DNA of 64,000 nt from Edwardsiella tarda ATCC 15947 = NBRC 105688. GTDB lineage: Bacteria; Pseudomonadota; Gammaproteobacteria; Enterobacterales; Enterobacteriaceae. The first letter of the stretch is position 1; the number at the start of each line of letters is the position of its first letter. Positions 8,793 to 55,732 of this stretch are shown in pieces. Below the pieces are notes generated by a model that saw only the letters and a list, made by a program, of their open reading frames with translations, had not been told where the DNA came from and ran no database searches. The translations under genes and the position numbers were made by a program. The stretch covers positions 3,576,683 through 3,640,682 of the forward strand of contig NZ_CP084506.1 of assembly GCF_003113495.2 (NCBI RefSeq). Reading direction: 5' to 3'.

Positions 8793-8793
8793 C

Positions 8794-10248
8794 ATGCCAT
8801 CGCTCGAGGCCGTCGAAGCCTTCCTGGTCATGAATGAAAGCGAGTTGCTACAAGACTTTTTGGTCGGCCTCATCGCCGCCCCCCAGTTGGCAGCGTTTTT
8901 TGAGAAGCACCCGCGTCTGCGTCAGCTTATCGATCGGGAGTGGCCCGGTTGGCAACGACGGTTGCGTAAGCGGATCAGTGAAACCAATGTCCCCGATGAC
9001 TTGGCGCAAGAGTTCACCCTATACCAACATCAGCTGCTGTTAGGCAACGGAGAGTTCTTCCGCAACTTACCCACGACACTCACCTGGCTTACCAACCAGG
9101 ACTCCCCTTTTAATCACGAGGCGCGTCAACTGTGTCCACAAGGAAACTTTCCCCACAGCGACAGTTTCCATGCGCTGTTTCTACAACGCTGGCGCCTTAG
9201 CTTAGTCGCACGCACGCTGACACTCCATCATCAGGTGATGGAGGAAGAACGCGCACTCCTGCAACAAGAGTTACAACAACGTCTACAACTGAGCGGAGCC
9301 CTCGAACCGGTATTGGCAGAAAATGAAAACGCAGCAGGACGTCTATGGGACCTCAGTCGCTCGACGCCTCAACATGGCGACTATCAGCTACTGGTGCAGT
9401 ATGGCGACTTCCTGGCTGGCCAACCTGATTTGCAACAATTAGCCGAACGTCTAGGACGTAGCCGCGCTGCCGAAGCGAAAGAGGAGGCCGACACTCAGCA
9501 AGAGATTCGTCATGTCTTATTACGTGAGCCCTCCGTGATGCCGGAGGAGGTCAGTGGTATTCACCAGAGCGACGAGATCCTACGCCTCATGCCGAGCGAA
9601 CTCTCGATTCTGGGATTGAGTGAGTTGGAGTATGAATTCTACCGCCGCTTACTGGAAAAGCGGCTGATGACCTATCGCCTGCAGGGGGATGCCTGGCGTG
9701 AACAGCCGGTACAACGCCTGATCGCTTACCATCACCACCAACAGCAACCTAAGGGGCCTTTTATCGTCTGCGTCGACACCTCGGGCTCGATGGGTGGCTT
9801 CCATGAACAGTGCGCTAAAGCCTTTTGCCTGGCGTTGATGCGTATCGCTCTGGCCGATAATCGTCGCTGTTACATCATGTTATTTTCCAGCGACATCGTA
9901 CAACACGAACTCACCGCCGATGATGGCATCGATCAGGCGATCCGCTTCCTCAGCCAACGCTTTAGGGGGGGGACCGATCTGGCTCGTTGCCTGGCACAGA
10001 CCAGCACGTTATTACAACAACCGGCCTGGCAGCAGGCGGATGCGGTGGTCATTTCTGACTTTATCGCCCAACGTCTCCCTGAAGAGACGCAGCGAGAAAT
10101 AAAACAGCTGCAAAAACAGAATGGCCACTGCTTTCACGCAGTGGCCATGTCGCCACATGGCAAGCCCAGCATAATGAAAGTCTTTGATTATATTTGGCGC
10201 TTTGATAGCGGTATTAAGGGGCGCCTGCTGCGTCGCTGGCGCCGTTAG
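8794..10248 (+). CDS. viaA: VWA-domain protein ViaA
   Basis: A 484-residue partner of RavA (E. coli ViaA 483). The C-terminal von Willebrand factor A domain has the MIDAS motif DTSGSMGG near residue 330, followed by FNEQ-like FHEQCAKAFCLALMRIAL and FRGGTDLA. In E. coli ViaA stimulates RavA ATPase activity and associates with respiratory proteins such as Nuo and Frd. The ATG at 8794, just past the ravA stop and with GGGAGAG upstream, fits better than an earlier in-frame ATG inside ravA. Confidence 0.94.
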   Translation: MPSLEAVEAFLVMNESELLQDFLVGLIAAPQLAAFFEKHPRLRQLIDREWPGWQRRLRKRISETNVPDDLAQEFTLYQHQLLLGNGEFFRNLPTTLTWLTNQDSPFNHEARQLCPQGNFPHSDSFHALFLQRWRLSLVARTLTLHHQVMEEERALLQQELQQRLQLSGALEPVLAENENAAGRLWDLSRSTPQHGDYQLLVQYGDFLAGQPDLQQLAERLGRSRAAEAKEEADTQQEIRHVLLREPSVMPEEVSGIHQSDEILRLMPSELSILGLSELEYEFYRRLLEKRLMTYRLQGDAWREQPVQRLIAYHHHQQQPKGPFIVCVDTSGSMGGFHEQCAKAFCLALMRIALADNRRCYIMLFSSDIVQHELTADDGIDQAIRFLSQRFRGGTDLARCLAQTSTLLQQPAWQQADAVVISDFIAQRLPEETQREIKQLQKQNGHCFHAVAMSPHGKPSIMKVFDYIWRFDSGIKGRLLRRWRR

Positions 10249-38946: not shown

Positions 38947-38964
38947 TTATTTGCCGATGCAGAA
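38947..38964 (-). repeat. Left attachment site attL
   Basis: TTATTTGCCGATGCAGAA; on the minus strand it reads TTC TGC ATC GGC AAA TAA, the last codons of an mnmE gene (FCIGK-stop). It matches attR at 16 of 18 positions. It is probably the original chromosomal mnmE tail displaced by insertion. Confidence 0.88.
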
Positions 38965-40277: not shown

Positions 40278-40481
40278 ATGGAGTCCAAAATGGAAGACAG
40301 ATGGTTATCCGTTGATGAAATTGCAGATTACCTCGGCATTAAGCGAGACACGGTATACAAGTAGATTGCAGAGAAAGGTATGCCTGCACACAAGATTGGA
40401 CGTCTTTGGAAATTTAAAAAGGATGAAGTAGATGGCTGGGTACGCGATGGCAAGGCTGGCGAAAGCAGTGATCAAGAATAA
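40278..40481 (+). pseudogene. Excisionase-type HTH protein with in-frame amber codon
   Basis: Reads MESKMEDRWLSVDEIADYLG then IKRDTVYK-stop-IAEKGMPAHKIGRLWKFKKDEV and ends DGWVRDGKAGESSDQE. This is the MerR-like HTH_17/excisionase fold, where the stopped codon is normally tryptophan (TVYKWIAEKG). The TAG at 40362-40364 is one base change from TGG. The rest of the frame is intact, so the mutation is probably recent. The gene lies 24 bases before the DUF499 gene and may have been the regulator of the defence operon. Upstream, 40079-40277 holds no gene and presumably the promoter. Confidence 0.8.
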
Positions 40482-40505: not shown

Positions 40506-43500
40506 ATGAAAACCGTACGTAATGCATGCCAGTTGCAGCCGAAGGCATTGGAAATCAATGTCGGCGATCAAATCGAGCAGCTTGATCAAATAATCAACGA
40601 CACCAATGGCCAAGAGTACTTTAAAAAGACCTTCATCACTGATGGTTTTAAAACATTGCTCGCCAAGGGTATGGCCCGTTTAGCTGGAAAATCAAATGAC
40701 ACTGTCTTCCACCTCAAGCAAGCAATGGGTGGTGGTAAAACCCACTTGATGGTCGGCTTTGGTTTATTGGCCAAAGACGCTGCGCTTCGCAATAGTCACA
40801 TAGGCGCAATGCCATACCAGTCTGATTATGGTTCAGCCAAAATAGCCGCCTTCAACGGGCGTAATAATCCCCACACTTATTTCTGGGGCGAAATAGCGCA
40901 CCAGTTAGGTAGAGAAGGTGTATTCCGGGAGTACTGGGAATCTGGTGCCAAGGCACCAGACGAACAAGCTTGGGTTAACCTATTTGATGGGGATGAACCT
41001 ATTCTTATTTTATTGGATGAGATGCCTCCTTACTTTCATTACTACAGCACCCAAGTACTTGGGCAAGGAACCATTGCAGATGTAGTTACACGGGCTTTCT
41101 CCAATATGCTGACAGCTGCACAGAAGAAAAAGAATGTGTGTATTGTCGTGTCAGACCTTGAAGCCGCCTACGACACAGGGGGCAAGCTGATTCAACGAGC
41201 TTTAGATGATGCTACACAAGAACTTGGGCGTGCAGAGGTTTCAATTACGCCTGTAAATCTGGAGTCAAATGAAATTTATGAAATTCTAAGAAAGCGCTTG
41301 TTTTTAGCTCTTCCTGATAAAAGTGAAATTTCTGAGATCGCCTCTGTTTACGCAACAAGACTTGCTGAAGCAGCTAAAGCCAAAACTGTTGAGCGAAGTG
41401 CTGAGGCTTTAGCAAATGACATTGAATCAACATATCCTTTCCATCCTAGCTTCAAAAGCATAGTTGCACTCTTCAAAGAGAATGAAAAATTCAAACAAAC
41501 GCGGGGTTTGATGGAGTTAGTTTCCCGATTGTTGAAATCCGTTTGGGAAAGTGACGAGGACGTATATTTAATTGGAGCTCAACACTTTGATCTTTCAATC
41601 CACGATGTTAGAGAAAAATTGGCTGAAATATCTGAGATGCGAGATGTTATCGCACGAGATCTTTGGGATTCAACCGATAGTGCACATGCACAAATTATTG
41701 ATTTAAATAGCGGCACCCACTATGCCAAGCAAGTGGGTACAATTTTGCTAACGGCAAGCCTATCAACAGCTGTAAATTCGGTTAAAGGTTTAACTGAGAG
41801 CGAAATGCTTGAGTGCTTGATTGATCCTAATCATCAAGGGAGTGATTACAGAGCTGCATTTGCAGAATTAGCCAAGTCAGCATGGTATCTACATCAAACT
41901 CAAGAAGGCAGAAATTATTTTAGCCATCAAGAAAACCTAACCAAGAAGCTTCAAGGTTATGCAGATAAAGCCCCAGAGAATAAAGTCCGGGAGTTGATTA
42001 GTTTCCGCCTCGAAGAAATGTATCGTCCAGTTACAAAGGAGGCTTACGAAAAAGTGTTGCCACTTCCTGAAATGGATGATGCAGAAGCAGCATTGAAGTC
42101 TTCAAGAGCACTATTAATCATAAGTCCAGATGGAAAAAATCCACCAGGGTTTGTAGCAAATTTCTTTAGAAGCTTAATTAATAAAAACAATATACTTGTT
42201 TTAACTGGTGATAAGTCATCAATTGCAAGTATTGAAAAAGCCGCACGTCATGTTTATGCAGTTACAAAGGCCGATAATGAGATTCCAACCTCTCATCCTC
42301 AACGTAAAGAGCTGGATGAAAAGAAAGCCCAATATGAGCAGGACTTTCAAACGACAGTTCTTACTGTTTTCGATAAAGTATTGTTCCCTGGTAATGGTGG
42401 CGGGCAAGATTTGCTGCGCTCAAAGGCGTTAGATAGTACCTATCCATCAAATGAGTCTTACAATGGCGAACGACAAATAATCAAGACGTTGACGTCTGAC
42501 CCAATCAAACTATATACGCAAATCACAGAAAACTTTGATGCGTTGAGAGCAAGATCTGAGTCATTGCTATTTGGACCTCAGGATGAAGCTCGTAAAACCG
42601 ATTTGCTTGATAAAATGAAGCAAAAGACACAGATGCCATGGCTACCAAGCAAAGGTTTTGAGCAACTTTCAATAGAAGCTTATCAGAGAGGTGTTTGGGA
42701 AGATCTTGGAAATGGATATATCACCAAAAAGCCTAAGCCAAAAACAACAGAAGTGATTGTAAGTGAGGACTCATCACCTGATGATTCTGGAACTGTACGT
42801 TTGAAGATAGATGTTGCCAATGCAGGAAACTGCCCTAGGATACATTATGCGGAGGATGGTGAAGTTTCAGAAAATAGTCCCGTTTTAGGGGAAAATATTC
42901 TGGCAACCAAAGCTTTGCGTGTTCAATTCCTTGCCGTTGATCCAACTGGAAAAAATCTCACAGGGACTCCTACAACATGGAAAAATCGACTAACCATTCG
43001 CAATCGGTTTGATGAAATTGCTAGAACCGTAGAGTTGTTTGTAGCCCCAAAAGGAAACATAAAGTTCACCCTCGATGGCTCAGAAGCCAGAAACGGTGAG
43101 TCATACAATGGACCAATTCAGTTATCCGATCAGGAAACTACGGTTTATGTTTTTGCTGAATGTGATGGATTAGAAGAGAAGCGTAACTTCACTTTTGCGG
43201 AGTCGGGTTCCAAAGAGATTCCCATTGTAAAAGATAAGCCCGCGATCTTAGTGAGCCCCTCTCCAAAACGAATGGACAGCTCAACCAAAACCTATGAAGG
43301 CCTAAAAATTGCGCAGGAAAAGGGCATAGAGTTTGAGCAAGTAAGTCTAATGGTTGGGTCTGCTCCAAAAGTGATTCATTTATCTTTGGGTGAGATGAAA
43401 ATAAGCGCTCAATTTGTTGAAACGGCTTTGGCTCATTTACAAAGTATTCTTAGTCCTGAAGCACCTGTAGTGATGACTTTTAAGAAAGTATATACGAAGA

Positions 43501-43574
43501 CAGGTCATGATTTGGAGCAATTTACCAAGCAATTAGGAATTGAAATTGGAACCGGTGAGGTCGAGCAACGATGA
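40506..43574 (+). CDS. Anti-phage-associated DUF499 AAA-type ATPase
   Basis: A 1022-residue protein of the DUF499 (COG1483) family. Walker A GGGKTH is at residues 75-80 and Walker B LILLDEMPP at about 168-175; the C-terminal third looks beta-rich. It starts at an ATG with AGGAGCAG upstream. It is the first gene of a four-gene operon whose members overlap or abut. DUF499 ATPases, DUF1156 methylases and PLD/SNF2 helicases were predicted to form a defence system from their recurrence in defence islands; I recall PADLOC's name Hma (helicase, methylase, ATPase) for a system of this composition. The ATPase probably powers recognition or regulation of DNA cleavage; its exact role is unknown. Confidence 0.85.
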   Translation: MKTVRNACQLQPKALEINVGDQIEQLDQIINDTNGQEYFKKTFITDGFKTLLAKGMARLAGKSNDTVFHLKQAMGGGKTHLMVGFGLLAKDAALRNSHIGAMPYQSDYGSAKIAAFNGRNNPHTYFWGEIAHQLGREGVFREYWESGAKAPDEQAWVNLFDGDEPILILLDEMPPYFHYYSTQVLGQGTIADVVTRAFSNMLTAAQKKKNVCIVVSDLEAAYDTGGKLIQRALDDATQELGRAEVSITPVNLESNEIYEILRKRLFLALPDKSEISEIASVYATRLAEAAKAKTVERSAEALANDIESTYPFHPSFKSIVALFKENEKFKQTRGLMELVSRLLKSVWESDEDVYLIGAQHFDLSIHDVREKLAEISEMRDVIARDLWDSTDSAHAQIIDLNSGTHYAKQVGTILLTASLSTAVNSVKGLTESEMLECLIDPNHQGSDYRAAFAELAKSAWYLHQTQEGRNYFSHQENLTKKLQGYADKAPENKVRELISFRLEEMYRPVTKEAYEKVLPLPEMDDAEAALKSSRALLIISPDGKNPPGFVANFFRSLINKNNILVLTGDKSSIASIEKAARHVYAVTKADNEIPTSHPQRKELDEKKAQYEQDFQTTVLTVFDKVLFPGNGGGQDLLRSKALDSTYPSNESYNGERQIIKTLTSDPIKLYTQITENFDALRARSESLLFGPQDEARKTDLLDKMKQKTQMPWLPSKGFEQLSIEAYQRGVWEDLGNGYITKKPKPKTTEVIVSEDSSPDDSGTVRLKIDVANAGNCPRIHYAEDGEVSENSPVLGENILATKALRVQFLAVDPTGKNLTGTPTTWKNRLTIRNRFDEIARTVELFVAPKGNIKFTLDGSEARNGESYNGPIQLSDQETTVYVFAECDGLEEKRNFTFAESGSKEIPIVKDKPAILVSPSPKRMDSSTKTYEGLKIAQEKGIEFEQVSLMVGSAPKVIHLSLGEMKISAQFVETALAHLQSILSPEAPVVMTFKKVYTKTGHDLEQFTKQLGIEIGTGEVEQR

Positions 43575-44158
43575 GTAAAACAGTTGACTTCGGTGCACCG
43601 TCTGATTTTGGCATGCATCACTTTTATGTAGAAATTCCCGCAGCACCCCGAGATGCCGTAGTGATTTATGAGGACTATGGCTTCGATGGTGATGAAGCCC
43701 GCAGGGAAACGGTAGAGCGCCGCCTGATTTTGGCAAGGGAGCTATGGACCAAGATTCGCGATGATGCTCGCCGAGATTTCAATGCTCGCCTAAAAGTGAA
43801 AAAACAAGGTTCTGGTACCTGGTCTACCGGAAAAGTAAAGCTCGACCGCTTTCTTGGGCGTGAGTTGTGCGTGCTTGGCTGGGCTGCTGAACATGCCTCT
43901 CCTGACGAATGTCTAGTGATTTGCCAAAAGTGGTTGGCTCTGCGCCCAGAAGAAAGATGGTGGCTTTATAGTAAAACCGCTGCCGAAGCGGGTCGAGACG
44001 ATCAAATGCAGCGCGGCTGGCGTAAAGCGATTTACTGTGCGCTATCGGATGGAGCCAATATTAAATTGGAAACCAAAAGGAAGCCAAAGTCTAAAAAGAT
44101 TCAAGCTGAAGACGAACCCCAGGATCTGTTTGGATTTATGGAAAAGGGAGAGTTTTAA
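43571..44158 (+). CDS. DUF3780 defence-associated protein
   Basis: A 195-residue protein starting MSKTVDFGAPSDFGMHHFYV, which I recognise as the DUF3780 family found with DUF499 and DUF1156 genes. No catalytic motif is evident; the N-terminal half is acidic/aromatic, and the C-terminus is lysine-rich (ETKRKPKSKKIQ) and ends in an acidic helix DLFGFMEKGEF. The ATG overlaps the DUF499 stop (ATGA), and its own stop overlaps the methylase start (TAATG), so the product is likely made in step with both. It may be an adaptor or specificity subunit; that is inference. Confidence 0.78.
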   Translation: MSKTVDFGAPSDFGMHHFYVEIPAAPRDAVVIYEDYGFDGDEARRETVERRLILARELWTKIRDDARRDFNARLKVKKQGSGTWSTGKVKLDRFLGRELCVLGWAAEHASPDECLVICQKWLALRPEERWWLYSKTAAEAGRDDQMQRGWRKAIYCALSDGANIKLETKRKPKSKKIQAEDEPQDLFGFMEKGEF

Positions 44159-47004
44159 TGGCATTACAACCGTTTGAATGGAAAGACAAGCCGGCTCTGA
44201 TTGAGCACCTCTTTCCTGTGCAAAAATTATCTGCTGAAAGTTTTAAAGAGCAGAGCGCCGTTCAAAGCAAGACTTTAGTAGCATTAGGTAGTTATTGGAA
44301 AGGTCGCAAACCTCTAGTCTTGAACAAGGCTTGCATTTTAGGTTCTCTGCTTCCAGTGACCGAGAATCGCTTAAAAGATTTAGAAATCTTTGAGCTTCTT
44401 ATGGGTATGGACCCTGAATCAATGCAAAGGCGAATTGAAGAAAATTTACCTGCTTCAAAACGGGAGGATGTTGGGGATTACTTAGTACTTCCTTTTAATG
44501 ATCAAGTTCGCGCAGGAAAGCGTGCGGAGGAAGTTGGAGATTCACTTTTTGCTCTTATCTGGAACAGAGTTAATTCTCACTTAGGAACCTCCGCAAACTC
44601 GATTCCTGGGTTAGTAGAGCAAATGGGAATAGCACGTTTTGGTCATAGGCCAAAGGTTGCAGACGTATTTGCTGGCTCTGGACAAATTCCTTTTGAAGCC
44701 GCTCGACTCGGTTGCAATGTATATGCCTCTGATTTAAATCCCATGGCATGCCTTTTGACGTGGGGGAGTTTCAATATCGTCGGCGCGCAAGCGAACAGCA
44801 AATCAGGTTTTGCGGCGGCTCAAGCAAAATTGGTTGAAAGAGTTCAGAAAGAAATTGATGAGCTTGAAGTTGAGGTTGATGGTCGAGGCTGGAGAGCAAA
44901 GGCATACCTTTATTGTGTTGAAGTAATTTGTCCAGAAAGTGGCTGGGCGGTTCCGGTTCTTCCGACACTTGTAGTTAGCGCTAGCAAGTTTGTAGTTGTT
45001 AGATTAATTCCAGTTGAATCGGAAAAGCGGTATGAGATTGAGGTTAAGTACTGCAAAAATAAGAATGAAATGGAGGTGCTGGATAATCCAACTGTTAATG
45101 ATGGTTATTTGATTCACAGCCCCAATCCGGGACAACATTATAGATCAAAAATTAGCAGTATCCGTGGTGATGTTCGTGTCGGTAGAATTACTACATCATT
45201 TCTTCGGAAATGGGAAAGAAGTGATTTTATCCCAAGAAAAGATGATATTTTTCAAGAACGCCTTTACTGCGTTCAGTGGGAAAAAATGATCGATGGAAAA
45301 TCCCGCCTTGAAACCGAGTTTCGATCAGTTACTAATGATGATCTAAAGCGAGAATCTAAGGTCGTTGACTATGTTGCTTCTCATTTTAATGAATGGCAGG
45401 AAAATGGTTTCATACCAGATATGGTAATCGAGAGGGGATATAACACAGATCAACCAATAAGAGAACGAGGCTGGACATATTGGCATCATTTGTTTGCTCC
45501 TAGGCAACTTTTGATGTTAGGGATCATAAAAAAGACGCTCCTAGCGGACCCAGAATTTTCAGAGCAGCTATATGTATCATTCAGTAGGCTGTTAGATTGG
45601 TCCACAAAACTATGTCGGTACGGAACTGGTGCTGCGCGCGAATCAATCTCGCAAACATTCTACAATCAGGCTCTAAATACTTTTTACAACTATGGAGTAA
45701 GACCATTCTCTTTTGCTTCTAAATATCTGCTAGAGAAAACCTATAGCTTTCCGTTACCAGCTAAAGCGTTCGTAAACTGTCATCCGGCGCATAATATAGA
45801 AGTAGAAAATGATATATACGTAACTGACCCTCCGTATGGAGATGCGGTTAAGTATGAAGAGATTACAGAGTTTTTTATTGCTTGGTTACGAAAAAATCCG
45901 CCAAAGGAGTTTGCCCACTGGATTTGGGATAGTAGACGAGCTATTGCTATTAAGGGGGAGGACGACAGCTTCCGCGCAGGTATGGTCGCGGCCTATCGAA
46001 AGATGGCGCAGAAGATGCCAGACAATGGCTTGCAGGTGCTGATGTTTACCCATCAAAGCGGTGCCATTTGGGCGGACATGGCTAATATTATCTGGGCCAG
46101 CGGCTTGCAGGTGACGGCAGCGTGGTACGTAGTGACTGAAACTGACTCAGCATTGCGTGGAGGCTCTAACGTAAAAGGCACCATCATTCTGATTTTGCGT
46201 AAGCGTCATCAAGCACTAGAAACCTTTCGTGATGATTTGGGCTGGGAAATCGAAGAAGCCGTTAAAGAACAAGTTGAATCGTTAATTGGATTAGACAAAA
46301 AGGTTCGCGCACAAGGTGCTGAAGGCCTTTACACCGATGCAGACCTGCAAATGGCTGGTTATGCAGCCGCGTTGAAAGTATTAACGGCTTATTCGTGTAT
46401 CGACGGTAAAGACATGGTGACTGAAGCCGAAGCTCCGCGCCAAAAAGGTAAAAAAACGTTTGTCGATGAATTGATTGATTTTGCGGTGCAAACTGCCGTT
46501 CAGTTTTTGGTGCCTGTTGGTTTTGAGAAAGGCGAATGGCAGAAGCTCCAATCGGTTGAGCGCTTCTACCTGAAAATGGCAGAAATGGAGCACCAAGGCG
46601 AAAAAACCTTGGATAACTATCAAAATTTCGCCAAAGCGTTCAAGGTTCACCATTTTGATCAACTCATGAGTGATGCCTCAAAGGCCAACTCTGCGCGGCT
46701 TAAACTATCGACTGAGTTCAGAAGCGCCATGATGGTCGGTGATGCTGAAATGGCAGGCACACCGCTGCGGGCGCTGCTCTATGCCTTATTTGAGCTTTCA
46801 AAAGAAGTTGAAGTAGACGATGTGCTTTTGCATCTTATGGAGAACTGCCCGAACTACCTTCCTAACAAGCAACTGCTTGCCAAAATAGCGGATTACTTGG
46901 CTGAAAAGCGTGAGGGTTTAAAAGGCACCAAAACGTTCAGCCCAGAGCAGGAAGCTAGCTGTGCGCGTGTTCTTGCGGAAGCTATTCGAAACCAGAGGCT
47001 GTAA
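44158..47004 (+). CDS. DUF1156 adenine-type DNA methyltransferase
   Basis: A 948-residue protein of the COG1743 family. An N-terminal DUF1156 segment is followed by SAM motif I VADVFAGSGQIPFEAARLG (from residue 167) and, after a long insert (about 230-540), the catalytic DPPYGD at residues 557-562. DPPY is typical of N6-adenine (or N4-cytosine) methylases. The insert contains a CPESGWAVP segment resembling half of a zinc ribbon. It presumably marks host DNA so the system spares it, as in DISARM and BREX. Base composition changes inside the gene: by hand about 35% GC at 45001-45060 and 60% at 45961-46020, suggesting a mosaic. Confidence 0.85.
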   Translation: MALQPFEWKDKPALIEHLFPVQKLSAESFKEQSAVQSKTLVALGSYWKGRKPLVLNKACILGSLLPVTENRLKDLEIFELLMGMDPESMQRRIEENLPASKREDVGDYLVLPFNDQVRAGKRAEEVGDSLFALIWNRVNSHLGTSANSIPGLVEQMGIARFGHRPKVADVFAGSGQIPFEAARLGCNVYASDLNPMACLLTWGSFNIVGAQANSKSGFAAAQAKLVERVQKEIDELEVEVDGRGWRAKAYLYCVEVICPESGWAVPVLPTLVVSASKFVVVRLIPVESEKRYEIEVKYCKNKNEMEVLDNPTVNDGYLIHSPNPGQHYRSKISSIRGDVRVGRITTSFLRKWERSDFIPRKDDIFQERLYCVQWEKMIDGKSRLETEFRSVTNDDLKRESKVVDYVASHFNEWQENGFIPDMVIERGYNTDQPIRERGWTYWHHLFAPRQLLMLGIIKKTLLADPEFSEQLYVSFSRLLDWSTKLCRYGTGAARESISQTFYNQALNTFYNYGVRPFSFASKYLLEKTYSFPLPAKAFVNCHPAHNIEVENDIYVTDPPYGDAVKYEEITEFFIAWLRKNPPKEFAHWIWDSRRAIAIKGEDDSFRAGMVAAYRKMAQKMPDNGLQVLMFTHQSGAIWADMANIIWASGLQVTAAWYVVTETDSALRGGSNVKGTIILILRKRHQALETFRDDLGWEIEEAVKEQVESLIGLDKKVRAQGAEGLYTDADLQMAGYAAALKVLTAYSCIDGKDMVTEAEAPRQKGKKTFVDELIDFAVQTAVQFLVPVGFEKGEWQKLQSVERFYLKMAEMEHQGEKTLDNYQNFAKAFKVHHFDQLMSDASKANSARLKLSTEFRSAMMVGDAEMAGTPLRALLYALFELSKEVEVDDVLLHLMENCPNYLPNKQLLAKIADYLAEKREGLKGTKTFSPEQEASCARVLAEAIRNQRL

Positions 47005-47007
47005 TTG

Positions 47008-49731
47008 ATGGCTATTCGGCGTTTTTCTTCTCGCACAGAAAGATTGGATACGGAATTCCTGGCTGAATCATTAAAAGGGGCTGCCAAATACTTCCGCATC
47101 GCAGGCTATTTCAGAAGCTCCATTTTTGAGCTGGTCGGCGAAGAGATTGCAAAAATCCCAGAAGTTAAGATCATCTGCAACTCTGAGCTTGAGCTGGCTG
47201 ACTTTCAGGTAGCTACAGGTAGGAATACAGCTCTTAAAGAGCGCTGGAATGAGGTGGATGTAGAAGCTGAGGCGCTTCTGAAAAAGGAACGCTATCAGAT
47301 TCTGGATCAGCTATTGCTATCGGGAAATGTTGAGATTCGCGTAGTCCCCAGAGAGCGGTTATTCCTTCACGGAAAAGCGGGCTCGATTCATTATGCAGAT
47401 GGTAGCCGTAAGTCTTTCATTGGCTCAGTGAATGAATCCAAAAGCGCGTTCGCTCATAATTACGAGCTGGTTTGGCAAGATGATGATGAAGAAAGTGCTG
47501 ATTGGGTAGAGAAAGAATTTTGGGCGCTCTGGAATGATGGAGTGCCACTACCCGAAGCAATATTGTCCGAAATCAACCGAGTAGCCAACCGGTGTGAAGT
47601 CACAATTGAGGTTTTAAAACCAGAGGAAGTTCCTGCGGCGGCTATGGCTGAAGCGCCTATTTACCGCGGAGGGGAGCAATTACAGCCTTGGCAACGCTCG
47701 TTTGTGACTATGTTTCTGGAACATAGGGAGATCTATGGCAAGGCTCGCCTGCTATTGGCTGATGAGGTGGGTGTTGGTAAAACGCTATCCATGGCAACCA
47801 GTGCACTAGTCAGTGCTTTGTTAGATGATGGCCCTGTTCTGATATTGGCACCTTCGACGCTCACGATTCAGTGGCAAATTGAGATGATGGACAAGCTTGG
47901 CGTGCCCACTGCGGTGTGGTCCTCACAGAAGAAGGTTTGGTTGGGTGTGGAGGGGCAAATACTTTCACCCCGAGGTGATGCTTCTTCCATTAAAAAATGC
48001 CCCTATCGAATTGCCATTGTCTCTACCGGACTGATTATGCATCAGCGGGAGAAGGCTGACTTTGTTAAAGAAGCTGGAATGCTTCTGAAGAATCGTTTTG
48101 GCACCGTCATTCTCGATGAGGCGCATAAAGCCCGTGCCCGTGGGGGCCTAGGTGACCAAGATTCTGAACCTAACAATCTCATGGCTTTTATGCAGCAGAT
48201 CGGCAGGCGTACGCGGCATCTAATATTAGGTACTGCGACACCGATTCAAACTGATGTTCGAGAGTTATGGGATTTGCTGGGTATTTTGAACTCGGGAGCG
48301 GAGTTTGTATTAGGCGATGTGCTATCGCCATGGCATGACCATGAACAAGCGATTCCTATGATCACCGGCAGGGCTAAGGTAACATCTGAAGCTGAAGTTT
48401 GGCATTGGTTAAGCAACCCATTACCTCCGGGCAATGAACACCATATCGTTCAGCAAATACGGGATTACCTGACGATTGATAGCAAATCTTTTGGCTGTTC
48501 GCATCACTTCGAAAACCTCGACTATATGATTCAGAGCCTATGGCTTTCAGAATGCATGACACCAAGTTTCTTTAAAGAGAACAATCCTGTCCTACGTCAC
48601 ACGGTACTACGCAAGCGTAAGCAGCTTGAAGATGATGGTCTGTTGGAACGAGTTGGGGTAAACACACACCCAATAACACGAAACCTAGTCCAGTATCAGT
48701 CGCGGTTTGTAGGACTTGGCATTCCGACCAATACGCCATTCCAGGTTGCTTACGAAAAAGCTGAAGAGTTCAACAAGCTCCTTCAGTCTCGTACACGATC
48801 CGCAGGCTTCATGAAGTCTTTGATGTTGCAACGGATCTGCTCAAGCTTTGCGTCGGGCTTAAAAACTGCCCAGAAGATGCTGAAGCATACTGTTTCTGAC
48901 GAAGACGAAGATGTGGTTGAGGATGTTGAGCACGTACTCTCGGAAATGACTCCTGCGGAAGTCGCTTGTTTAAGAGAGATTGAAAAACAGCTTTCGCGTC
49001 CTGAAGCCGTAGATTCAAAACTAAATACAGTGAAGTGGTTTTTAACGGAATTCCGCACTGATGGAAAAACCTGGCTGGAACATGGCTGTATTATTTTTAG
49101 TCAGTATTACGACACGGCAGAGTGGATAGCAAAAGAGCTGGCCAAGTCTCTAAAGGGCGAAGTAATAGCTGTTTACGCAGGCGTTGGCAAAAGTGGGTTA
49201 TTCAGAGGCGAGCAGTTCAACAATGTTGAGCGCGAAGTAATTAAGGCCGCTGTGAAGACACGCGAGATTCGATTAGTCGTAGCAACGGATGCTGCTTGCG
49301 AGGGCTTGAACCTGCAAACGTTGGGTACGCTCATCAATATCGACCTTCCTTGGAACCCATCCCGTTTAGAGCAGCGCCTTGGGCGAATCAAGCGTTTTGG
49401 TCAGACGCGTAAATTTGTAGATATGCTCAATCTTGTTTATAGCGAAACGCAGGATGAGAAAGTTTATAACGTTTTGTCGGAACGTTTGCGCGATACGTAT
49501 GACATTTTTGGCAGTCTGCCAGATACGATTGATGACGACTGGATCGATAACGAAGAAGAGCTCAACAACCGCATGAATGAATATATGCACGAGCGGAAAA
49601 ATGCGCAAGATGCATTCTCGGTGAAGTATCGCGGAACCCTTGATCCCGATGCCCATCTCTGGGAGCGCTGCGCTACGGTTCTATCCCGGAGAGACATAGT
49701 TGGTAAGCTTAGCGAGCCATGGGGAAATTGA
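47008..49731 (+). CDS. PLD-nuclease / SNF2-type helicase defence protein
   Basis: A 907-residue fusion. The N-terminal phospholipase-D-like domain has the HKD-type segment LHGKAGSIHYADG (H121, K123) followed by FIGSVNESKSAF. The helicase has Walker A ADEVGVGKT near residue 253, DEAH at about 370-373, motif III LGTATPI, and motifs V-VI ATDAACEGLNLQTLG and RLEQRLGRIKRFGQ near 790. It resembles DrmD-like/SNF2 helicases of defence systems and could translocate on and cut unmodified DNA. The ATG at 47008 follows the methylase stop by 3 bases. Its stop is about 24 bases from the IS remnant, so the operon appears to end intact. Confidence 0.85.
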   Translation: MAIRRFSSRTERLDTEFLAESLKGAAKYFRIAGYFRSSIFELVGEEIAKIPEVKIICNSELELADFQVATGRNTALKERWNEVDVEAEALLKKERYQILDQLLLSGNVEIRVVPRERLFLHGKAGSIHYADGSRKSFIGSVNESKSAFAHNYELVWQDDDEESADWVEKEFWALWNDGVPLPEAILSEINRVANRCEVTIEVLKPEEVPAAAMAEAPIYRGGEQLQPWQRSFVTMFLEHREIYGKARLLLADEVGVGKTLSMATSALVSALLDDGPVLILAPSTLTIQWQIEMMDKLGVPTAVWSSQKKVWLGVEGQILSPRGDASSIKKCPYRIAIVSTGLIMHQREKADFVKEAGMLLKNRFGTVILDEAHKARARGGLGDQDSEPNNLMAFMQQIGRRTRHLILGTATPIQTDVRELWDLLGILNSGAEFVLGDVLSPWHDHEQAIPMITGRAKVTSEAEVWHWLSNPLPPGNEHHIVQQIRDYLTIDSKSFGCSHHFENLDYMIQSLWLSECMTPSFFKENNPVLRHTVLRKRKQLEDDGLLERVGVNTHPITRNLVQYQSRFVGLGIPTNTPFQVAYEKAEEFNKLLQSRTRSAGFMKSLMLQRICSSFASGLKTAQKMLKHTVSDEDEDVVEDVEHVLSEMTPAEVACLREIEKQLSRPEAVDSKLNTVKWFLTEFRTDGKTWLEHGCIIFSQYYDTAEWIAKELAKSLKGEVIAVYAGVGKSGLFRGEQFNNVEREVIKAAVKTREIRLVVATDAACEGLNLQTLGTLINIDLPWNPSRLEQRLGRIKRFGQTRKFVDMLNLVYSETQDEKVYNVLSERLRDTYDIFGSLPDTIDDDWIDNEEELNNRMNEYMHERKNAQDAFSVKYRGTLDPDAHLWERCATVLSRRDIVGKLSEPWGN

Positions 49732-50409
49732 TTATGGTTCAGACTGGTATTCGTGGGCCTTGTTGAACAATTCATCCATGAGGTCGGCGAGCCCCAACCC
49801 CATTCGGGATCAGCACACTATTTCGCTGACGGGCATGCCCAAGGCAGTCATTTTGTTCAACGCCGCGACCCGTGCCAACGCTTCGCCGACCTGACCGTTG
49901 TAGTTGCGCAGTCGCAGCAGGTTGTCCGTCAGCTGTTTGAATCACCACATCGCCGTCTCGCCGATTGAACGCTGATGGTAGCCATTGGCTGCTTTCCACT
50001 CGCTTAAGCGTCCCGCTTTGAAGGCTTCAACCGCCTCATCACGGGGATGACCTTCTTCCCACTGCCCGGCATTTTTTCTTAATGGGATGCGGGCGGCAGC
50101 GCCTTTTTTGGCTATATCTTCATAGCATTGCCGGCTGTCGTAGGCGCCGTCGCCGTAGACAATCCCTATCTGGCGCCGCAGTGGCCGCAACATCAGGCCC
50201 AGCACTGCGTTGTCACCGACATTCTCCAAGGAGACTTTGGCACAGATGAGATGATGGGATTGGCCATCCACGCCCAGGTGTAGCTTGCCCCTGGTACGCC
50301 GTTTTTCCTTGCCGTGCTTGCGGATCCTAGATTGGCCCCTTGAAGATCCAGACACTTCGCCCCTCTTAACTTAAGAGGTAGTCTTGGAACTATGTTCAGT
50401 ACTAGTCGC

Positions 50410-50787
50410 AACGAGAAGATGGTCGAAGTGTTAACAGGGGCTGAGCGCCGTCGACGCCGGACTCCGCAGGAAAAGATCTCCATCGTGCGGCAGACCTTTG
50501 AGCCCGGAATAACCGTCTCTCATGTCGCTCGCTTGCACGACGTCAACGCCAACCAGCTTTTCAAATGGCGTAAGCAATTCCAGGAAGGGTCTCTCACGGC
50601 GATCACCGCCGGTGAGGATGTTGTTCCAGCCTCCGAGTTGGCTGCTGCCATCAAGCAGATCCGAAAGCTCCAGCGTCTGCTCGGGAAGAAGACCATGGAG
50701 AACGAGATCCTCAAAGAAGCCGTGGAGTATGGTCGAGCAAAAAAATGGATTGCGCATGCGCCCTTGTTGCCGGGGGACGACGATTAA
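50410..50787 (+). CDS. IS2-like OrfA (InsC-type) DNA-binding protein
   Basis: About 125 residues from an ATG at 50419 or 50392; the part from [20 protein letters not shown] matches IS2 InsC. It has an N-terminal HTH ([20 protein letters not shown]) and a C-terminal leucine-zipper-like part ending [15 protein letters not shown]. OrfA binds the terminal repeats and is fused to OrfB by -1 frameshifting in IS2 to give the transposase. The exact start is uncertain. Confidence 0.85.
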
Positions 50788-51623
50788 GTGCTGTGAGCCA
50801 GGCCCTTAATGTATCGCGTGCGCAGCTATCCGTTCGTGTTCATCGAAAACCAGGTTGGCAAGATGCTCGTCATCATCGCCAGCATGATGATGCTGCCTTA
50901 CTTGGCCGGATCATGGAGGCGATAGCTGAGCTTCCCTCCTATGGCTATCGCCGAGTCTGGGCGCTGTTACGGCGTCAGTCAGAGGCAACACGACAGCCTG
51001 TGGTAAACGCCAAACGGGTATATCGCGTCATGCTCGATCATGGACTGCTGCTGGAAAGAAAACCGGCTGCACCATTGACCCAGCGGGCACATAAGGGGTG
51101 TGTTGCCGTCAAAGAGAGCAATCGACGTTGGTGCTCAGATGGCTTCGAGTTTCGCTGCGATAACGGTGAAAAACTACGAGTCACGTTCGCCATGGCCTGC
51201 TGTGACAGGGAAACCTTGGATTGGGCTGCCAGTACCGGGGGTTACGACAGTGACACGGTGCAAGATGTCATGCTGAGGTCTGTCGAACGTCGCTTCGGGG
51301 ATTCGTTGCCGGCATCACCGGTAGAGTGGCTGACTGATAATGGCTCGGCGTATCGAGCCCATGAGACCCGCGCGTTTGCACGAGAAATCGGGTTGGAGCC
51401 CAGAACGACTGCGGTGAGAAGCCCACAGAGCAACGGTATAGCGGAGAGCTTCGTCAAGACGATGAAGTGAGACTATATCGAGATGATGCCGAAACCAGAT
51501 AGCCGAATAGCGGTAGGCAATTTGGCCATCGCGTTTGAGCATTATAACGAACACCAGCCGCACAGCACCTTGGGATACCGTTCACTCCGGGAATTTCTGC
51601 GCAGTCGGGTATCACAACCCTAA
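50745..51623 (+). pseudogene. IS2-like OrfB (InsD-type) transposase with in-frame stop
   Basis: The frame reads a DDE integrase core: [18 protein letters not shown] with the first aspartate, [13 protein letters not shown] with the second, and [12 protein letters not shown] with the glutamate. A TGA follows directly at 51468-51470, where IS2 has an arginine codon (VKTIKRDYI); the frame continues [20 protein letters not shown] and ends at 51623. A CGA-to-TGA change would explain it. The truncated protein keeps the catalytic triad but loses about 50 C-terminal residues. Confidence 0.82.
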
Positions 51624-52120: not shown

Positions 52121-52234
52121 TCCTCCGTAGAAAACGCTCTTGGTGCCTAAATTGGACAACTACAGCGACGAGGATTTCGTTAGGTCCTCGGTACGCTCTT
52201 GCATGTTGATGTTTGTTACAGGGAGATCATCTGC

Positions 52235-52570
52235 ATGCGTGAGCAAAATCCATCAGTTTACAGCGATCCTAACGGGTCAATTCTGAAAGAGCTTTATGAG
52301 CTTAAGCAGCTGGTAATCCAGCAACGACAGGCGCAAAAAGAGGTGCTTTCTGCCGAGGAGTGCGCCGAGTTACTGGGGGTTTCTGTCAGCTATGTGTACC
52401 GGCTGACCAGTGAAAAGCGTCTGCCGCATTACAAGCCACAAGGCAAAAAGATCTACTTCAAACGCGTTGAGCTGCTGGACTGGCTGCTCTCCCACCGCAT
52501 TTCACCGGACGCCGAACTCACTGAGCATGTGACCAAGCGTGTACGGCAAGCTAGTTATGGGCGGTTGTGA
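52235..52570 (+). CDS. Excisionase/AlpA-like HTH protein
   Basis: A 111-residue protein whose C-terminal half is a helix-turn-helix of the HTH_17/excisionase type: LSAEECAELLGVSVSYVYRL near residues 38-57, then LPHYKPQGKKIYFKRVELLDWL. The N-terminal third looks like a short coiled coil. The ATG at 52235 with GGGAG upstream is preferred to an upstream in-frame ATG. It precedes repA by 7 bases. It may be the recombination directionality factor of the integrase or a regulator of repAC; both are inferred from context. Confidence 0.75.
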   Translation: MREQNPSVYSDPNGSILKELYELKQLVIQQRQAQKEVLSAEECAELLGVSVSYVYRLTSEKRLPHYKPQGKKIYFKRVELLDWLLSHRISPDAELTEHVTKRVRQASYGRL

Positions 52571-52577
52571 GGCTGTT

Positions 52578-53429
52578 ATGGAACGAGATCTCATAGCATC
52601 TCACAGGCCTCAGGACCTCCGATCGGCTTTTGTTGAACCTCCGAAACCCCTCGATTTTGTCCTCCCGGGGCTGCCGGTGGGCTGCGTTGGTGCTTTGGTG
52701 TCACCGGGAGGAGTGGGCAAGTCGATGTTGGCATTGCAACTGGCAATACAGATCGCCGGTGGGCCGGATTGGATTAAACTTGGCAAGCTGGGCAGGGGAG
52801 CTGTGCTCTACCTGCCTGCTGAGGACCCTTGGCCTGTACTGCACCAGCGCTTGTTTGTCTTGGGCAGAGGTCTTGATGCTGAACTTCGTGCCAACGTTGA
52901 ACGAGACCTTCGTTTGATATCGCTTCAGGGGGCCAGTCCGAATGTGCTGGATAGCCACTGGTGGGAAGCGATTGCTATTTGGGCTGAAGGGGTGAGGTTG
53001 ATTGTCATCGATACTTTGAGGCGCTTCCACGATGCCGACGAGAATACGGCCTGTGCCATGACGCAGGTACTAGGTCAGTTGGAACGGCTGGCCATGGGGC
53101 TGGGATGCGCTGTGCTGTTTGTACACCACACCAGTAAATCTGCGGTATTCCAAGAAGCTGGCGATCAGCAGCAGGCAAGCCGTGGTTCGTCGGTACTGGT
53201 GGACAACATTCGCTGGCAGGCCTATCTCGCCACTATGACCAAGAAAGAGGCGCAGAAGCTGGGCGTATCGGTAGAGAAGAGCCAGCTTTACGTGCGGTTT
53301 GGGGTAAGCAAAAGCAATTATGGGCCGCCACTACCGGAGCGATGGCTGGAGCGGAAGGAAGGTGGCGTGCTGTACCCCGCTGGTTTGGACGAAATACGCT
53401 GGGCTGGGGGCAAACGTGCCTTGCTTTGA
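52578..53429 (+). CDS. repA: IncQ-type RepA replicative helicase
   Basis: A 283-residue RecA-fold ATPase of the RSF1010 RepA type (AAA_25). Walker A SPGGVGKS is at residues 42-49, with Walker B LIVIDTL near 140 and the conserved FVHHTSK region near 190. In IncQ plasmids RepA is the hexameric 5'-3' helicase used at oriV. It overlaps repC by 14 bases, the same repA-repC order as RSF1010. The RepB primase usually encoded nearby is absent from this island. Confidence 0.88.
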   Translation: MERDLIASHRPQDLRSAFVEPPKPLDFVLPGLPVGCVGALVSPGGVGKSMLALQLAIQIAGGPDWIKLGKLGRGAVLYLPAEDPWPVLHQRLFVLGRGLDAELRANVERDLRLISLQGASPNVLDSHWWEAIAIWAEGVRLIVIDTLRRFHDADENTACAMTQVLGQLERLAMGLGCAVLFVHHTSKSAVFQEAGDQQQASRGSSVLVDNIRWQAYLATMTKKEAQKLGVSVEKSQLYVRFGVSKSNYGPPLPERWLERKEGGVLYPAGLDEIRWAGGKRALL

Positions 53430-54255
53430 ATTGACTCATGCCCGGCACGACCATATGCACTGCCTTGCTCCCGGGTTGTTTAGGGCGATCTCGCATGGCC
53501 AACGCCGCCGTGACAAGCTGGAGGTGATTTACCGTTTCGGTGGTGGCAATCAGATCGAGTTCTCCGGGCCTGAGCCGTTGGGTGCAGATGACCTCCGTGT
53601 GCTTCAGGGGTTGGTTGCCATGGCTGGACTTGAGTCACAAAGTAACGAGATTGAGCCAGTTGCAGTGAGCGAAACTGGGACGATATTGCGAGATCTTCTG
53701 GATCTTCGTTGGGCTGCCAACCAGCAAAGGGTATTGGTGGTCAGAAGCAGCCTGCGCAAACTGGCCAAGGAGATTGGATACGCCAATCCTCGGGATACCA
53801 ATACTGTACGTTGCTGTATCGAGCGATTGTGGAAGGTGTCGGTAATCGCAAAGGTGGCTGGCCAGCGTAGCGGATTTCGCTTATTGGCGAACTATGTCAG
53901 TGACACTCAGACTGATGGACTTTTTGTGGCGCTTAATCCCTTGCTGACCTACGCCATTATGGGTAATGGTCGCCATGTTCGTATCGACATGACAGAAGTT
54001 CGGCACTTGAATGGCAGCATCGCTCGGTTGTTGCATCAGCGGCTATGTGCCTGGGTGGATTGTGGTCAGAAAAGGGCAGTGCAGTTAGACACCTTGGTCG
54101 CTTATGCCTTTCCCGATGAGGTCAGCACGGCCATCCATCGCAAGCGGCAATCACGAGTTCGCAAGGCATTGGATGAGCTGACTGCTTTGGGCTGGTCTAT
54201 CTGCGAACATGCCAAGGGGCGGTTTACCATCGGCCGGCCTGCACTATCACGATAA
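53416..54255 (+). CDS. repC: IncQ-type RepC origin-binding initiator
   Basis: A 279-residue protein (RSF1010 RepC 283) with clear RepC blocks: RHDHMHCLAPGLFRAI, IEFSGPEPLGADDLRVLQGL, CIERLWKVSVIAKVAG, FVALNPLLTYAIMGNG and ARLLHQRLCAWVD. RepC binds oriV iterons and recruits RepA. The GTG at 53416 preceded by GGGGG, inside the end of repA, gives the family length and coupling. I see no iteron array in the 158 bases after it. Confidence 0.9.
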   Translation: MPCFELTHARHDHMHCLAPGLFRAISHGQRRRDKLEVIYRFGGGNQIEFSGPEPLGADDLRVLQGLVAMAGLESQSNEIEPVAVSETGTILRDLLDLRWAANQQRVLVVRSSLRKLAKEIGYANPRDTNTVRCCIERLWKVSVIAKVAGQRSGFRLLANYVSDTQTDGLFVALNPLLTYAIMGNGRHVRIDMTEVRHLNGSIARLLHQRLCAWVDCGQKRAVQLDTLVAYAFPDEVSTAIHRKRQSRVRKALDELTALGWSICEHAKGRFTIGRPALSR

Positions 54256-54413: not shown

Positions 54414-55553
54414 TCACCCCAAGACATTGGGGAAATCGAGCATGGCATCTCGGCGCCGCGATTCAAGAATGTCGGCGTAGATCTCGGTAGTTCTCAGCTC
54501 GCTGTGCCCCAGCAAGCGGGAGAGGGCATAGATATCGACGCCGCGGTTAAGCTGGATGACGGCGAAGGTATGACGCGCGCTGTGGAAGGTTACCTTCTTG
54601 GTTATACCCGCCTGCAACGCCCACCGGGTGAGCTCCATGTTTTGCCAAGCCGAGTACTTGAGGCCCTTGAAGATCCGCTCTGTTGCCTTGCCTGGGCGCC
54701 CCATCAGCTGCATCGCCATGTCATTCAAATCCAGGTATTGCAGGCCGCTGGTCTTTTTCTGGGTGAAGACGATACGGTAATGGCCATAGAAGGGCTCCAG
54801 CTCGGCCCAGGTCAGCTTGTGAATGTCGGACCAGCGTAAGCCAGTGCAACAAGAGAACAGAAAGGCGCGCTTAAGAACGTCGTACCGGCACTCGGCCTGG
54901 GCCAGGGCTCGTACCTCGTCTTCGGTCAGATAAACCCGTTTGTTCTTCTCCCCCTGGATAGCTTTGACACGTCGTACCGGATTATCCGGTAGCAGCCGTT
55001 CCTGCTCAGCCTGGTTCAGGGCCGCCCTTAACTTGTTGAAATAGGCACTCTGGGTGTTGCGGCTCAGTGGTGTGCCGCTTTTGGTGCGGGCCTTGTGCAT
55101 CAGGTAATGCCGAAAACCCTCCAGGAACAGCTGATCTACTTCCTCGAAAGTCAGCTCCGGCAGCTTATGGTACTGGCGTAAATGCTTGAGGGCTGATATC
55201 CAGATGGAATGGTTGCTCTTGCTGCCTGCCGCTTTTTGGTCTGTAACCTCTTGGAAGTACTCGAAGAAGCTGGCCTTGTAGGCGTTCGAGAAATCCAGAT
55301 GGTGTTTACCAGTCTCGTACTCGAAGAGTCGCTTGGCGCGGATGGCTTCGGCTGCTCGCTGGGTTTCTTTGTTGTGGAGCCGCTGTGCTGGGGTACGCGG
55401 CTTGTCGTATAGGAAGAGATCCAGGGGCTCTCTGCTGCGTTTGTGCTTGCGGATGCCCGTAGTTGGTTCAAGGTAGGAGCCGGCGTAATAGGTTAAGCGC
55501 AGAGCGCGCTTGCCTTCGGCGTCAGGTTCGCGGTATTCGATGCTGATCTTCAT
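54414..55553 (-). CDS. int: Tyrosine integrase
   Basis: A 379-residue site-specific recombinase. The catalytic residues are visible: R240 (CCTGLRWSD), K around 266-267, H324-R327 (FHSARHTF), H350 (LLGHSELR) and nucleophile Y359 (TTEIYADI). The N-terminal region resembles an arm-binding domain and is followed by a SAM-like core-binding domain (about 95-195). The start MKISIEYREP with GGGGGAC upstream was chosen over a longer reading. Style and wording resemble Bacteroidota-type integrases (phage_int_SAM_5 class) more than lambda or P4 ones. It lies 161 bases from attR and presumably integrates the island at mnmE. Confidence 0.92.
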   Translation of the reverse strand: MKISIEYREPDAEGKRALRLTYYAGSYLEPTTGIRKHKRSREPLDLFLYDKPRTPAQRLHNKETQRAAEAIRAKRLFEYETGKHHLDFSNAYKASFFEYFQEVTDQKAAGSKSNHSIWISALKHLRQYHKLPELTFEEVDQLFLEGFRHYLMHKARTKSGTPLSRNTQSAYFNKLRAALNQAEQERLLPDNPVRRVKAIQGEKNKRVYLTEDEVRALAQAECRYDVLKRAFLFSCCTGLRWSDIHKLTWAELEPFYGHYRIVFTQKKTSGLQYLDLNDMAMQLMGRPGKATERIFKGLKYSAWQNMELTRWALQAGITKKVTFHSARHTFAVIQLNRGVDIYALSRLLGHSELRTTEIYADILESRRRDAMLDFPNVLG

Positions 55554-55557
55554 GAGT

Positions 55558-55602
55558 GTCCCCCGAAAGTCCCCCGAGAGGTTACTTTGGGGACTCTCGG
55601 GG
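55558..55602. repeat. Short repeats between int and attR
   Basis: GTCCCCCGA occurs twice (55558-55566, 55569-55577), 11 bases apart, and CCCCGAGAG (55572-55580) has an exact inverted partner CTCTCGGGG (55594-55602). They sit immediately upstream of the int start. They could be integrase arm sites, an excisionase site or an int operator. Confidence 0.5.
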
Positions 55603-55714
55603 TAAATTCTCACGAAACAAGATCAGGCAAGAATAGCCAGTAAAAAACAAAGTCAATTATTTACAATGCATTATGTTCTCACCGGCTACTTTTTATTGCT
55701 GATTTTTCACCACA

Positions 55715-55732
55715 TTATTTTCCAATGCAGAA
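55715..55732 (-). repeat. Right attachment site attR (3' end of mnmE)
   Basis: TTATTTTCCAATGCAGAA; read on the minus strand TTC TGC ATT GGA AAA TAA, the last codons of mnmE. It matches attL at 16 of 18 positions, and both differences are synonymous (ATT/ATC, GGA/GGC). Confidence 0.9.

Follow-up and report, generated by a model that had tools for sequence, protein, structure and literature searches.

The operon and its genomic setting

The window analyzed was a stretch of 64,000 nucleotides from Edwardsiella tarda ATCC 15947. Four genes lie on its plus strand at positions 40506-49731, and all four ORFs are open. They encode an AAA+ ATPase of the DUF499 family (40506-43574, 1022 aa; ORC/Cdc6-like and BrxC-like), a DUF3780 protein (43571-44158, 195 aa), a DUF1156 DNA methyltransferase, probably of the adenine type (44158-47004, 948 aa), and a PLD (HKD) nuclease domain fused to an SNF2-type helicase/translocase (47008-49731, 907 aa from ATG 47008). 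In the ORF list the last gene starts at TTG 47005 and has 908 aa; the ATG at 47008 is the likelier start, and the PADLOC match to the protein begins at residue 2 of the ORF from TTG 47005. A preliminary description of this DNA had reported four large ORFs coupled by ATGA, TAATG and a 3-base gap. The couplings were confirmed: the DUF499 and DUF3780 genes share a 4-base ATGA overlap (43571-43574), the DUF3780 and methylase genes share a 1-base TAATG overlap at 44158, and the methylase and helicase genes are 3 bases apart, given the helicase start at ATG 47008. Four open ORFs are indeed present, although "large" was loose wording for a DUF3780 protein of this size.

The GC content of the operon is 0.447, compared to 0.562 in the left flank and 0.558 in the right flank, which marks the operon as foreign. 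An island of 16.8 kb carries it, inserted at the mnmE 3' end and bounded by imperfect 18-bp repeats. The left att-like repeat (38947-38964), the former 3' end of mnmE, matches the right copy (55715-55732), the present 3' end, at 16 of 18 bases, and the two copies are 16,768 bases apart. A tyrosine integrase gene adjoins mnmE (54414-55613, minus strand; Phage_integrase 2.9e-20, Phage_int_SAM_5 1.9e-21). The island also holds a replication/regulation module (52199-54255), with genes on the plus strand for an HTH_17 protein (52199-52570), a RepA-like AAA_25 protein (52539-53429) and RepC (53320-54255); the nearest plasmid matches of RepA/RepC were IncQ-type, with approximately 65% DNA identity over 11% of the query. 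IS remnants lie 3' of the operon (49942-51470) and consist of a DDE transposase gene (49942-50355, minus strand) and an IS3-type pair (50392-51470, plus strand). All 4 of the same-genus genomes compared had an empty site, where the Smr-domain gene found left of the island in Edwardsiella lies no more than about 50 bases from mnmE, without an island in between. Islands of the SGI1 family are likewise described as inserting at the 3' end of trmE/mnmE (PMC8409611, available text), but the cargo of the Edwardsiella island differs from theirs and its RepA/RepC are nearest to those of IncQ-type plasmids. The preliminary description had missed both this island and the exchanged recognition region reported below.

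DUF3780 was found in 1 of 5 same-genus and 1 of 40 related genomes, each time the Edwardsiella genome analyzed. The order as a whole yielded 3 carriers among 394 genomes, counting the Edwardsiella genome. Among 5426 E. coli genomes, 33 had close operons, with coverage of 80% or more in 31; the 34 places were all chromosomal. Close operons were also present on 7 plasmids of Acinetobacter among 72,556 plasmid records, and each of the 7 is predicted to be conjugative. Judged by these genome comparisons, the operon is patchy and mobile. On one of the Acinetobacter plasmids (L003), the operon adjoins Tn7-like tnsD and tnsE genes and an XRE regulator.

Directly 5' of the operon is a small HTH-like ORF (40290-40481, plus strand) whose product resembles an excisionase-family DNA-binding protein annotated at the corresponding position of the E. 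coli locus L002 (about 8785-8976). Edwardsiella and L002 share an in-frame TAG at one position of this ORF, and it is uninterrupted in an Advenella locus (L011) and a metagenome locus (L012). It may be a shared interrupted regulator or have an internal start. Small ORFs of this family precede the operon in several Pseudomonadota; none was present in the 420 bases before the operon in the Acinetobacter loci L003 and L010. The interrupted ORF, together with the IS remnants, could indicate that the operon is a genomic passenger no longer working in this host. We consider this very unlikely. All four operon ORFs are open and retain their motifs, and the upstream ORF is probably not required, since L002 shares the TAG and the two Acinetobacter loci have no such ORF.

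Family assignment and relation to known systems

Pfam matches were obtained for DUF499 on the ATPase (PF04465, 4.4e-26), for DUF3780 (PF12635, 1.5e-76) on what is a standalone protein inside the core locus, for DUF1156 at the N terminus of the methylase (PF06634, 4.8e-16), and for PLDc_2 (3.3e-13, residues 21-176), followed by SNF2 and Helicase_C, on the helicase protein. The helicase protein had no Pfam match to TUDOR at an E value of 0.01. When all four proteins were searched with PADLOC, a dedicated model was the best for each, near full length: DUF499 (PDLC02192) with 1970 bits, DUF3780 (PDLC02191) with 361 bits, DUF1156_MTase (PDLC02189) with 1743 bits and PLD_Helicase (PDLC02193) with 1835 bits. 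The NCBIfam models NF042961 through NF042964, described as anti-phage or anti-phage-associated, were all exceeded at their cut-offs. DUF499 (NF042962) scored 1473.5 bits versus a cut-off of 1200, DUF3780 (NF042961) scored 266.9 bits versus 200, and the equivalogs for the methylase (NF042963) and the helicase (NF042964) were both above cut-off. The initial view of the locus as a defense-type operon is borne out by these four anti-phage models.

By its gene content, the operon is a Type-2 BREX-related (BR) system in the sense of Rakesh and Krishnan 2026 (PMC12839542). In the available text of that survey, the four-gene form with DUF3780 and an HKD-helicase is termed Type-2 BR, is modeled as R-M-like, and is widespread, occurring in 1120 taxa with DUF3780 in 98% and the HKD-helicase in 83%. 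The Edwardsiella operon resembles this type in having a DUF499 ATPase, a standalone DUF3780 protein, a DUF1156 methylase and an N-terminal HKD (PLD)-SNF2 protein in one operon, and also in the Fn3-like part of the DUF499 C-terminal region; it differs in being without an extra internal gene. An earlier notice (PMC7641849, available text) described an operon of COG1743, DUF499 and an SWI2/SNF2-nuclease whose nuclease is PD-(D/E)XK or PLDc. The kind of system is therefore already known: the combination is published and is named by NCBI models. It is little studied, and protection against phage by this copy would be its predicted function. Gao et al. 2020 reportedly tested such a four-gene set.

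The operon had at first been identified as Hma. This identity was rejected because the dedicated PADLOC models score far above the Hma models, which reached 168 bits for HmaC, 66 bits for HmaB and 128 bits for HmaA. Hma, as described in the available text of Payne et al. (PMC8565338), is alike in combining a helicase, a methylase and an ATPase that are related to those of Edwardsiella, but it has three genes and no DUF3780; HmaB is predicted there to be an m5C methylase. Hma is counted among the DUF499-centered BR systems in PMC12839542 (available text), and would mainly correspond to Type-1 BR. Assignment to full BREX or DISARM was also unsupported by the four proteins. BREX Type 3 (BrxC/PglXI/BrxHII) has a related ATPase, methylase and SNF2 helicase, and PADLOC returned PglXI and BrxHII matches; the Edwardsiella operon, in contrast, is a four-gene set without PglZ, BrxA and BrxB, and has a PLD nuclease domain instead. 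Neither PglZ nor any other BREX core protein was detected among the four operon proteins with Pfam, PADLOC or NCBIfam. DISARM shares a related SNF2 helicase (DrmD, 151.5 bits in PADLOC), but the helicase reached only 186.8 bits versus the NCBIfam DrmD cut-off of 610, and the remaining three operon proteins gave no match to other DISARM proteins with Pfam, PADLOC or NCBIfam.

Relatives were collected by means of DUF3780. The best 80 of 195 DUF3780 relatives in named genomes, five viral-contig loci, E. coli L002, plasmid L003 and the Edwardsiella operon together gave 88 loci; a phage locus (L004) was kept outside this set. Genes were counted as full-length when the open frame covered at least 85% of the length of the Edwardsiella protein. 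The four families do co-occur elsewhere, with all four genes full-length in 56 of the 88 loci (including the best 80 of 195). With tblastn, all four proteins were matched in 67 of the 87 loci besides Edwardsiella, and at least one gene was missing in the other 20, many of which are short contigs, again in a set that includes the best 80 of 195 relatives. One of these 20 (L025) has the helicase gene immediately after DUF3780. Because the set was drawn by DUF3780, these counts apply to loci that have it, and the frequency of the other three genes without DUF3780 is not readable from them. In all 56 complete sets, from loci including the best 80 of 195, the four genes share a strand and are collinear, in agreement with the earlier claim of one functional unit. 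More than 400 nt separated two core genes in 21 of these 56 sets (from the best 80 of 195).

The presumed recognition region of the methylase and the proposed mechanism

Identity and tree analyses were performed on the 56 complete loci, excluding the 32 of 88 in which fewer than four ORFs were full-length. Three sets (16 close, 22 and 14 loci) took in 52 of the 56, and L027, L029, L031 and L032 belonged to none. The 16 close operons come from Pseudomonadota, Bacillota and Thermodesulfobacteriota. Among them, methylase residues 201-550 (44758-45807, plus strand), a hypervariable exchanged segment and the presumed target-recognition domain (TRD), were 35-81% identical per 25 residues, compared to 82-97% after residue 551. 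Residues 76-150 were likewise low (61-71%), and at the DNA level the divergent block extends from about 44256 to 45800. Mean pairwise identity was 0.57 for the segment and 0.75-0.91 for ten other segments, and nine recognition groups could be distinguished among the 16 loci at 78% identity or more.

The Edwardsiella segment was 83% identical to that of Acinetobacter L003/L010 and 45-47% identical to those of E. coli L002, Advenella L011 and the metagenome locus L012. The motor and AAA parts were 94-95% identical to L002/L011/L012 and 91% to Acinetobacter. The segment data rejected a clade of Edwardsiella with L002, L011 and L012 (log-likelihood 217 lower, p-AU 2e-52), and the backbone data rejected a clade of Edwardsiella with L003 and L010 (log-likelihood 118 lower, p-AU 3e-73); these p-AU values are descriptive, because the groups were chosen after the pairwise identities had been seen. 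Between L012 and Edwardsiella, DUF499 was 97.7% identical as protein and 92-99% identical as DNA per 150-nt block across 41256-43505, and DNA identity in the methylase block was 41-72%. In these two loci, ATPases that are almost the same accompany recognition regions that differ. Compared along 40506-49731, L012 is a mosaic, in which most of DUF499 (92-99% DNA identity) and the C-terminal part of the methylase (84-96%) alternate with divergent blocks in DUF3780 (68-80%), the N-terminal half of the methylase (41-72%) and the helicase (71-82%). Neither a recognition-region exchange in the methylase nor an mnmE island was found in the available text of PMC12839542; the present analysis adds both, a specificity region exchanged in nature and the island at mnmE.

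Motif I of the methylase (VFAGSG) is at residue 170 and motif IV (TDPPY) at residue 556. TDPPY is by convention the motif IV of adenine-type or amino-methylases. The DPPY of the Edwardsiella methylase, read by this convention, speaks for an amino-methylase as against the m5C methylase predicted for HmaB. A structure model of the methylase (of moderate confidence as a whole, pLDDT 68.4) placed a beta-rich part at residues of about 246-390 (mostly pLDDT of at least 80) between two methyltransferase-fold halves. On this model, the variable segment between VFAGSG and TDPPY would be an inserted TRD.

In the wider sets (22 and 14 loci), identity of the segment was again reduced (0.52 and 0.51), the remainder of the methylase being at 0.69-0.72. 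The C terminus of DUF499 was as variable as the segment in these sets (0.51 and 0.54); corresponding values were 0.60 and 0.54 for the Fn3 part, 0.36 and 0.38 for the DUF3780 tail, and 0.61 and 0.62 for the first 200 residues of the methylase with gaps counted as differences. The idea that variation is confined to the recognition region fits the 16 close loci but fails at larger distance. Co-variation was assessed by partial rank correlation with the recognition segment, other segments being controlled, and 499 permutations. The N-terminal 200 residues of the methylase co-varied with the segment in the close set (20 of 499 permutations) and in the 14-locus set (13 of 499). The DUF499 AAA part did so in the close set only (2 and 8 of 499 permutations reached the value in two runs) and the Fn3 part in the 22-locus set only (0 of 499). 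For DUF3780 in the close set, the count was 8 of 499 for the whole protein and 104 of 499 with the tail left out. No segment outside the methylase co-varied with the recognition segment in all three sets.

The segment is hypervariable, has a history of its own and is swapped among operons that match elsewhere. The methylase is therefore likely to be the subunit that sets specificity, both in marking and in restriction. The specificity subunit of BREX and Type I R-M systems serves restriction as well as marking. If one little-changed core of ATPase, DUF3780 and nuclease serves nine recognition groups, then restriction must read DNA through the methylase. The chances appear evenly balanced that the recognition region is an exchangeable cassette that re-addresses the whole complex, with restriction reading via the methylase and DUF3780 acting as an allele-independent coupler. 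The variability of the DUF499 C terminus in the wider sets means that the methylase need not be the sole reader, and there may be a second sensor in DUF499. The authors of PMC12839542 (available text) propose the RRM of DUF499 as an invader sensor; they describe a C-terminal RRM in Type-2 DUF499 with FnIII-like domains before it, the latter in 53% of taxa. The Edwardsiella DUF499 has a beta domain at residues 840-888, matched by CHB_HEX_C_1 (840-888) and, below its cut-off, by Fn3_assoc (842-888).

Sensing could also be arranged in a Type IV-like manner, with DUF3780 or the DUF499 C terminus reading modified phage DNA and the methylase serving only as host protection or antitoxin. Fusions of DUF3780 to ASCH/PUA or RAMA readers occur in some cases (PMC12839542, available text), EVE proteins are partners of related operons in archaea (PMC7641849, available text), and the DUF499 C terminus is fast-evolving. 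However, no reader domain was matched on the Edwardsiella DUF3780 by Pfam, and exchange of a segment beside a little-changed ATPase and nuclease is easiest to understand if restriction follows methylase specificity. We therefore regard this arrangement as quite unlikely. The structure model of DUF3780 (pLDDT 70.5) has four strands and five helices, in agreement with PMC12839542 (available text), and structure and fold searches gave no convincing PDB match; its earlier designation as an uncharacterized fourth subunit was judged right. In the literature searched, which included few subscription papers, the word DUF3780 occurred only in that survey. An alignment of 25 DUF3780 rows, comprising two subfamilies about 38% identical, had invariant HHF, FN-RLK and EERWWL. 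The protein would act as a coupling subunit independent of the methylase allele.

Taken together, we consider it probable that this is a Type-2 BREX-related, R-M-like phage-defense operon on an mnmE-integrated island, with the methylase as its specificity subunit. The preliminary description, with its presumed methyl-marking of self and cutting of unmodified DNA, was right in that an R-M-like mechanism is the likeliest. Gene content, gene order, motifs, mobility and the exchange of the recognition region were observed and form the basis of this proposal. The DUF1156 methylase would read the DNA sequence via its central target-recognition region and, in the host genome, mark a single base that is probably N6-adenine. 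The DUF499 ATPase and DUF3780 would act as a common core, through which recognition of an unmarked site is relayed to the PLD-SNF2 protein, and the latter would move along invading DNA and cut it. If the methylase is the reader, swapping of the segment in nature is suggested to change the DNA sequence that the system recognizes. Because a single segment is exchanged between otherwise matching operons, the question of specificity is directly testable, and natural pairs such as Edwardsiella and L012, with near-identical DUF499 and unlike recognition regions, provide ready controls.

The motifs of the effector bear on how restriction would end. DUF499 has Walker A (GGGKTH) and Walker B (ILLDE) motifs, and the PLD-SNF2 protein has HGK...GSVN, GVGKT, DEAH, GTATP and QRLGRIKRFGQ. 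The preliminary description had called the motifs intact. Nucleotide-binding, DPPY, HxK...GSxN and SF2 helicase motifs are present in the operon; the canonical HxKx4D of PLD, with its aspartate, is absent, as it is from 53 of the 56 complete sets (from the best 80 of 195 relatives). Over the 56 sets, methylase motif I was present in 42, TDPPY in 54, DPPY in 56, DEAH in 53 and helicase motif III in 55. The missing HxKx4D, and the fact that the nearest PDB sequences of the helicase are RapA, would suit a BREX-like exclusion in which phage DNA replication is blocked or proteins are stripped from DNA, the SNF2 motor being the main effector and the PLD part minor or inactive. DUF499 is BrxC-like (PMC12839542 and PMC13326643, available texts), the methylase resembles PglXI (PADLOC 1.2e-12), and BREX restricts by inhibiting phage DNA replication (PMC13326643, available text). 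We nevertheless find this exclusion fairly unlikely: HxK...GSxN is kept in 56 of 56 complete sets (from the best 80 of 195 relatives), the PLD part and the motor are equally conserved in the 22- and 14-locus sets, and PglZ, the BREX effector in PMC12839542 (available text), has no counterpart among the four proteins.

Phage-borne copies and inserted genes

The temperate Proteus phage vB_PvuS_Pm34 (L004, 19380-20468) carries a piece resembling the DUF499 C terminus, followed by a truncated DUF3780. The methylase and helicase had no match in the 21.6 kb of this phage examined, and Pm34 was the one record with such a fragment among 50,697 phage records. Among the 120 listed of 3170 relatives of the Pm34 DUF3780, identities were 73-84%, nearly all proteins were about 190-224 aa versus 171 aa in the phage, and the named relatives were bacterial. 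Because these relatives are nearly all longer and the named ones bacterial, the Pm34 piece is likelier a captured operon fragment than a conserved inhibitor or decoy. A role of the phage DUF3780 as an anti-defense inhibitor was judged less likely on the same grounds. A scan of viral contigs with the phage query yielded 5 loci, and all four proteins were matched in 5 of 5; a scan with the Edwardsiella query yielded none.

Several relatives carry additional genes between the core genes. A DarT-DarG toxin-antitoxin pair (DNA ADP-ribosylation) lies between DUF3780 and the methylase in L007 (10624-12350) and L089 (10567-12291), the two scanned loci in which it was confirmed by NCBIfam and PADLOC. 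A similar insert occupies the same gap in L008 and L009, and inserts from 4 of the 56 complete operons fall into one cluster; L008 and L089 are possibly one locus. The words DarT and macrodomain are absent from the main text of PMC12839542. Another inserted gene (a cluster of 10 ORFs) recurs between core genes in L027, L029, L032, L044, L050, L052, L059 and others. By eye, its product resembles an AlbA_2/Schlafen-type ATP-binding wHTH protein, and Schlafen effectors are reported in BR systems in the available text of PMC12839542.
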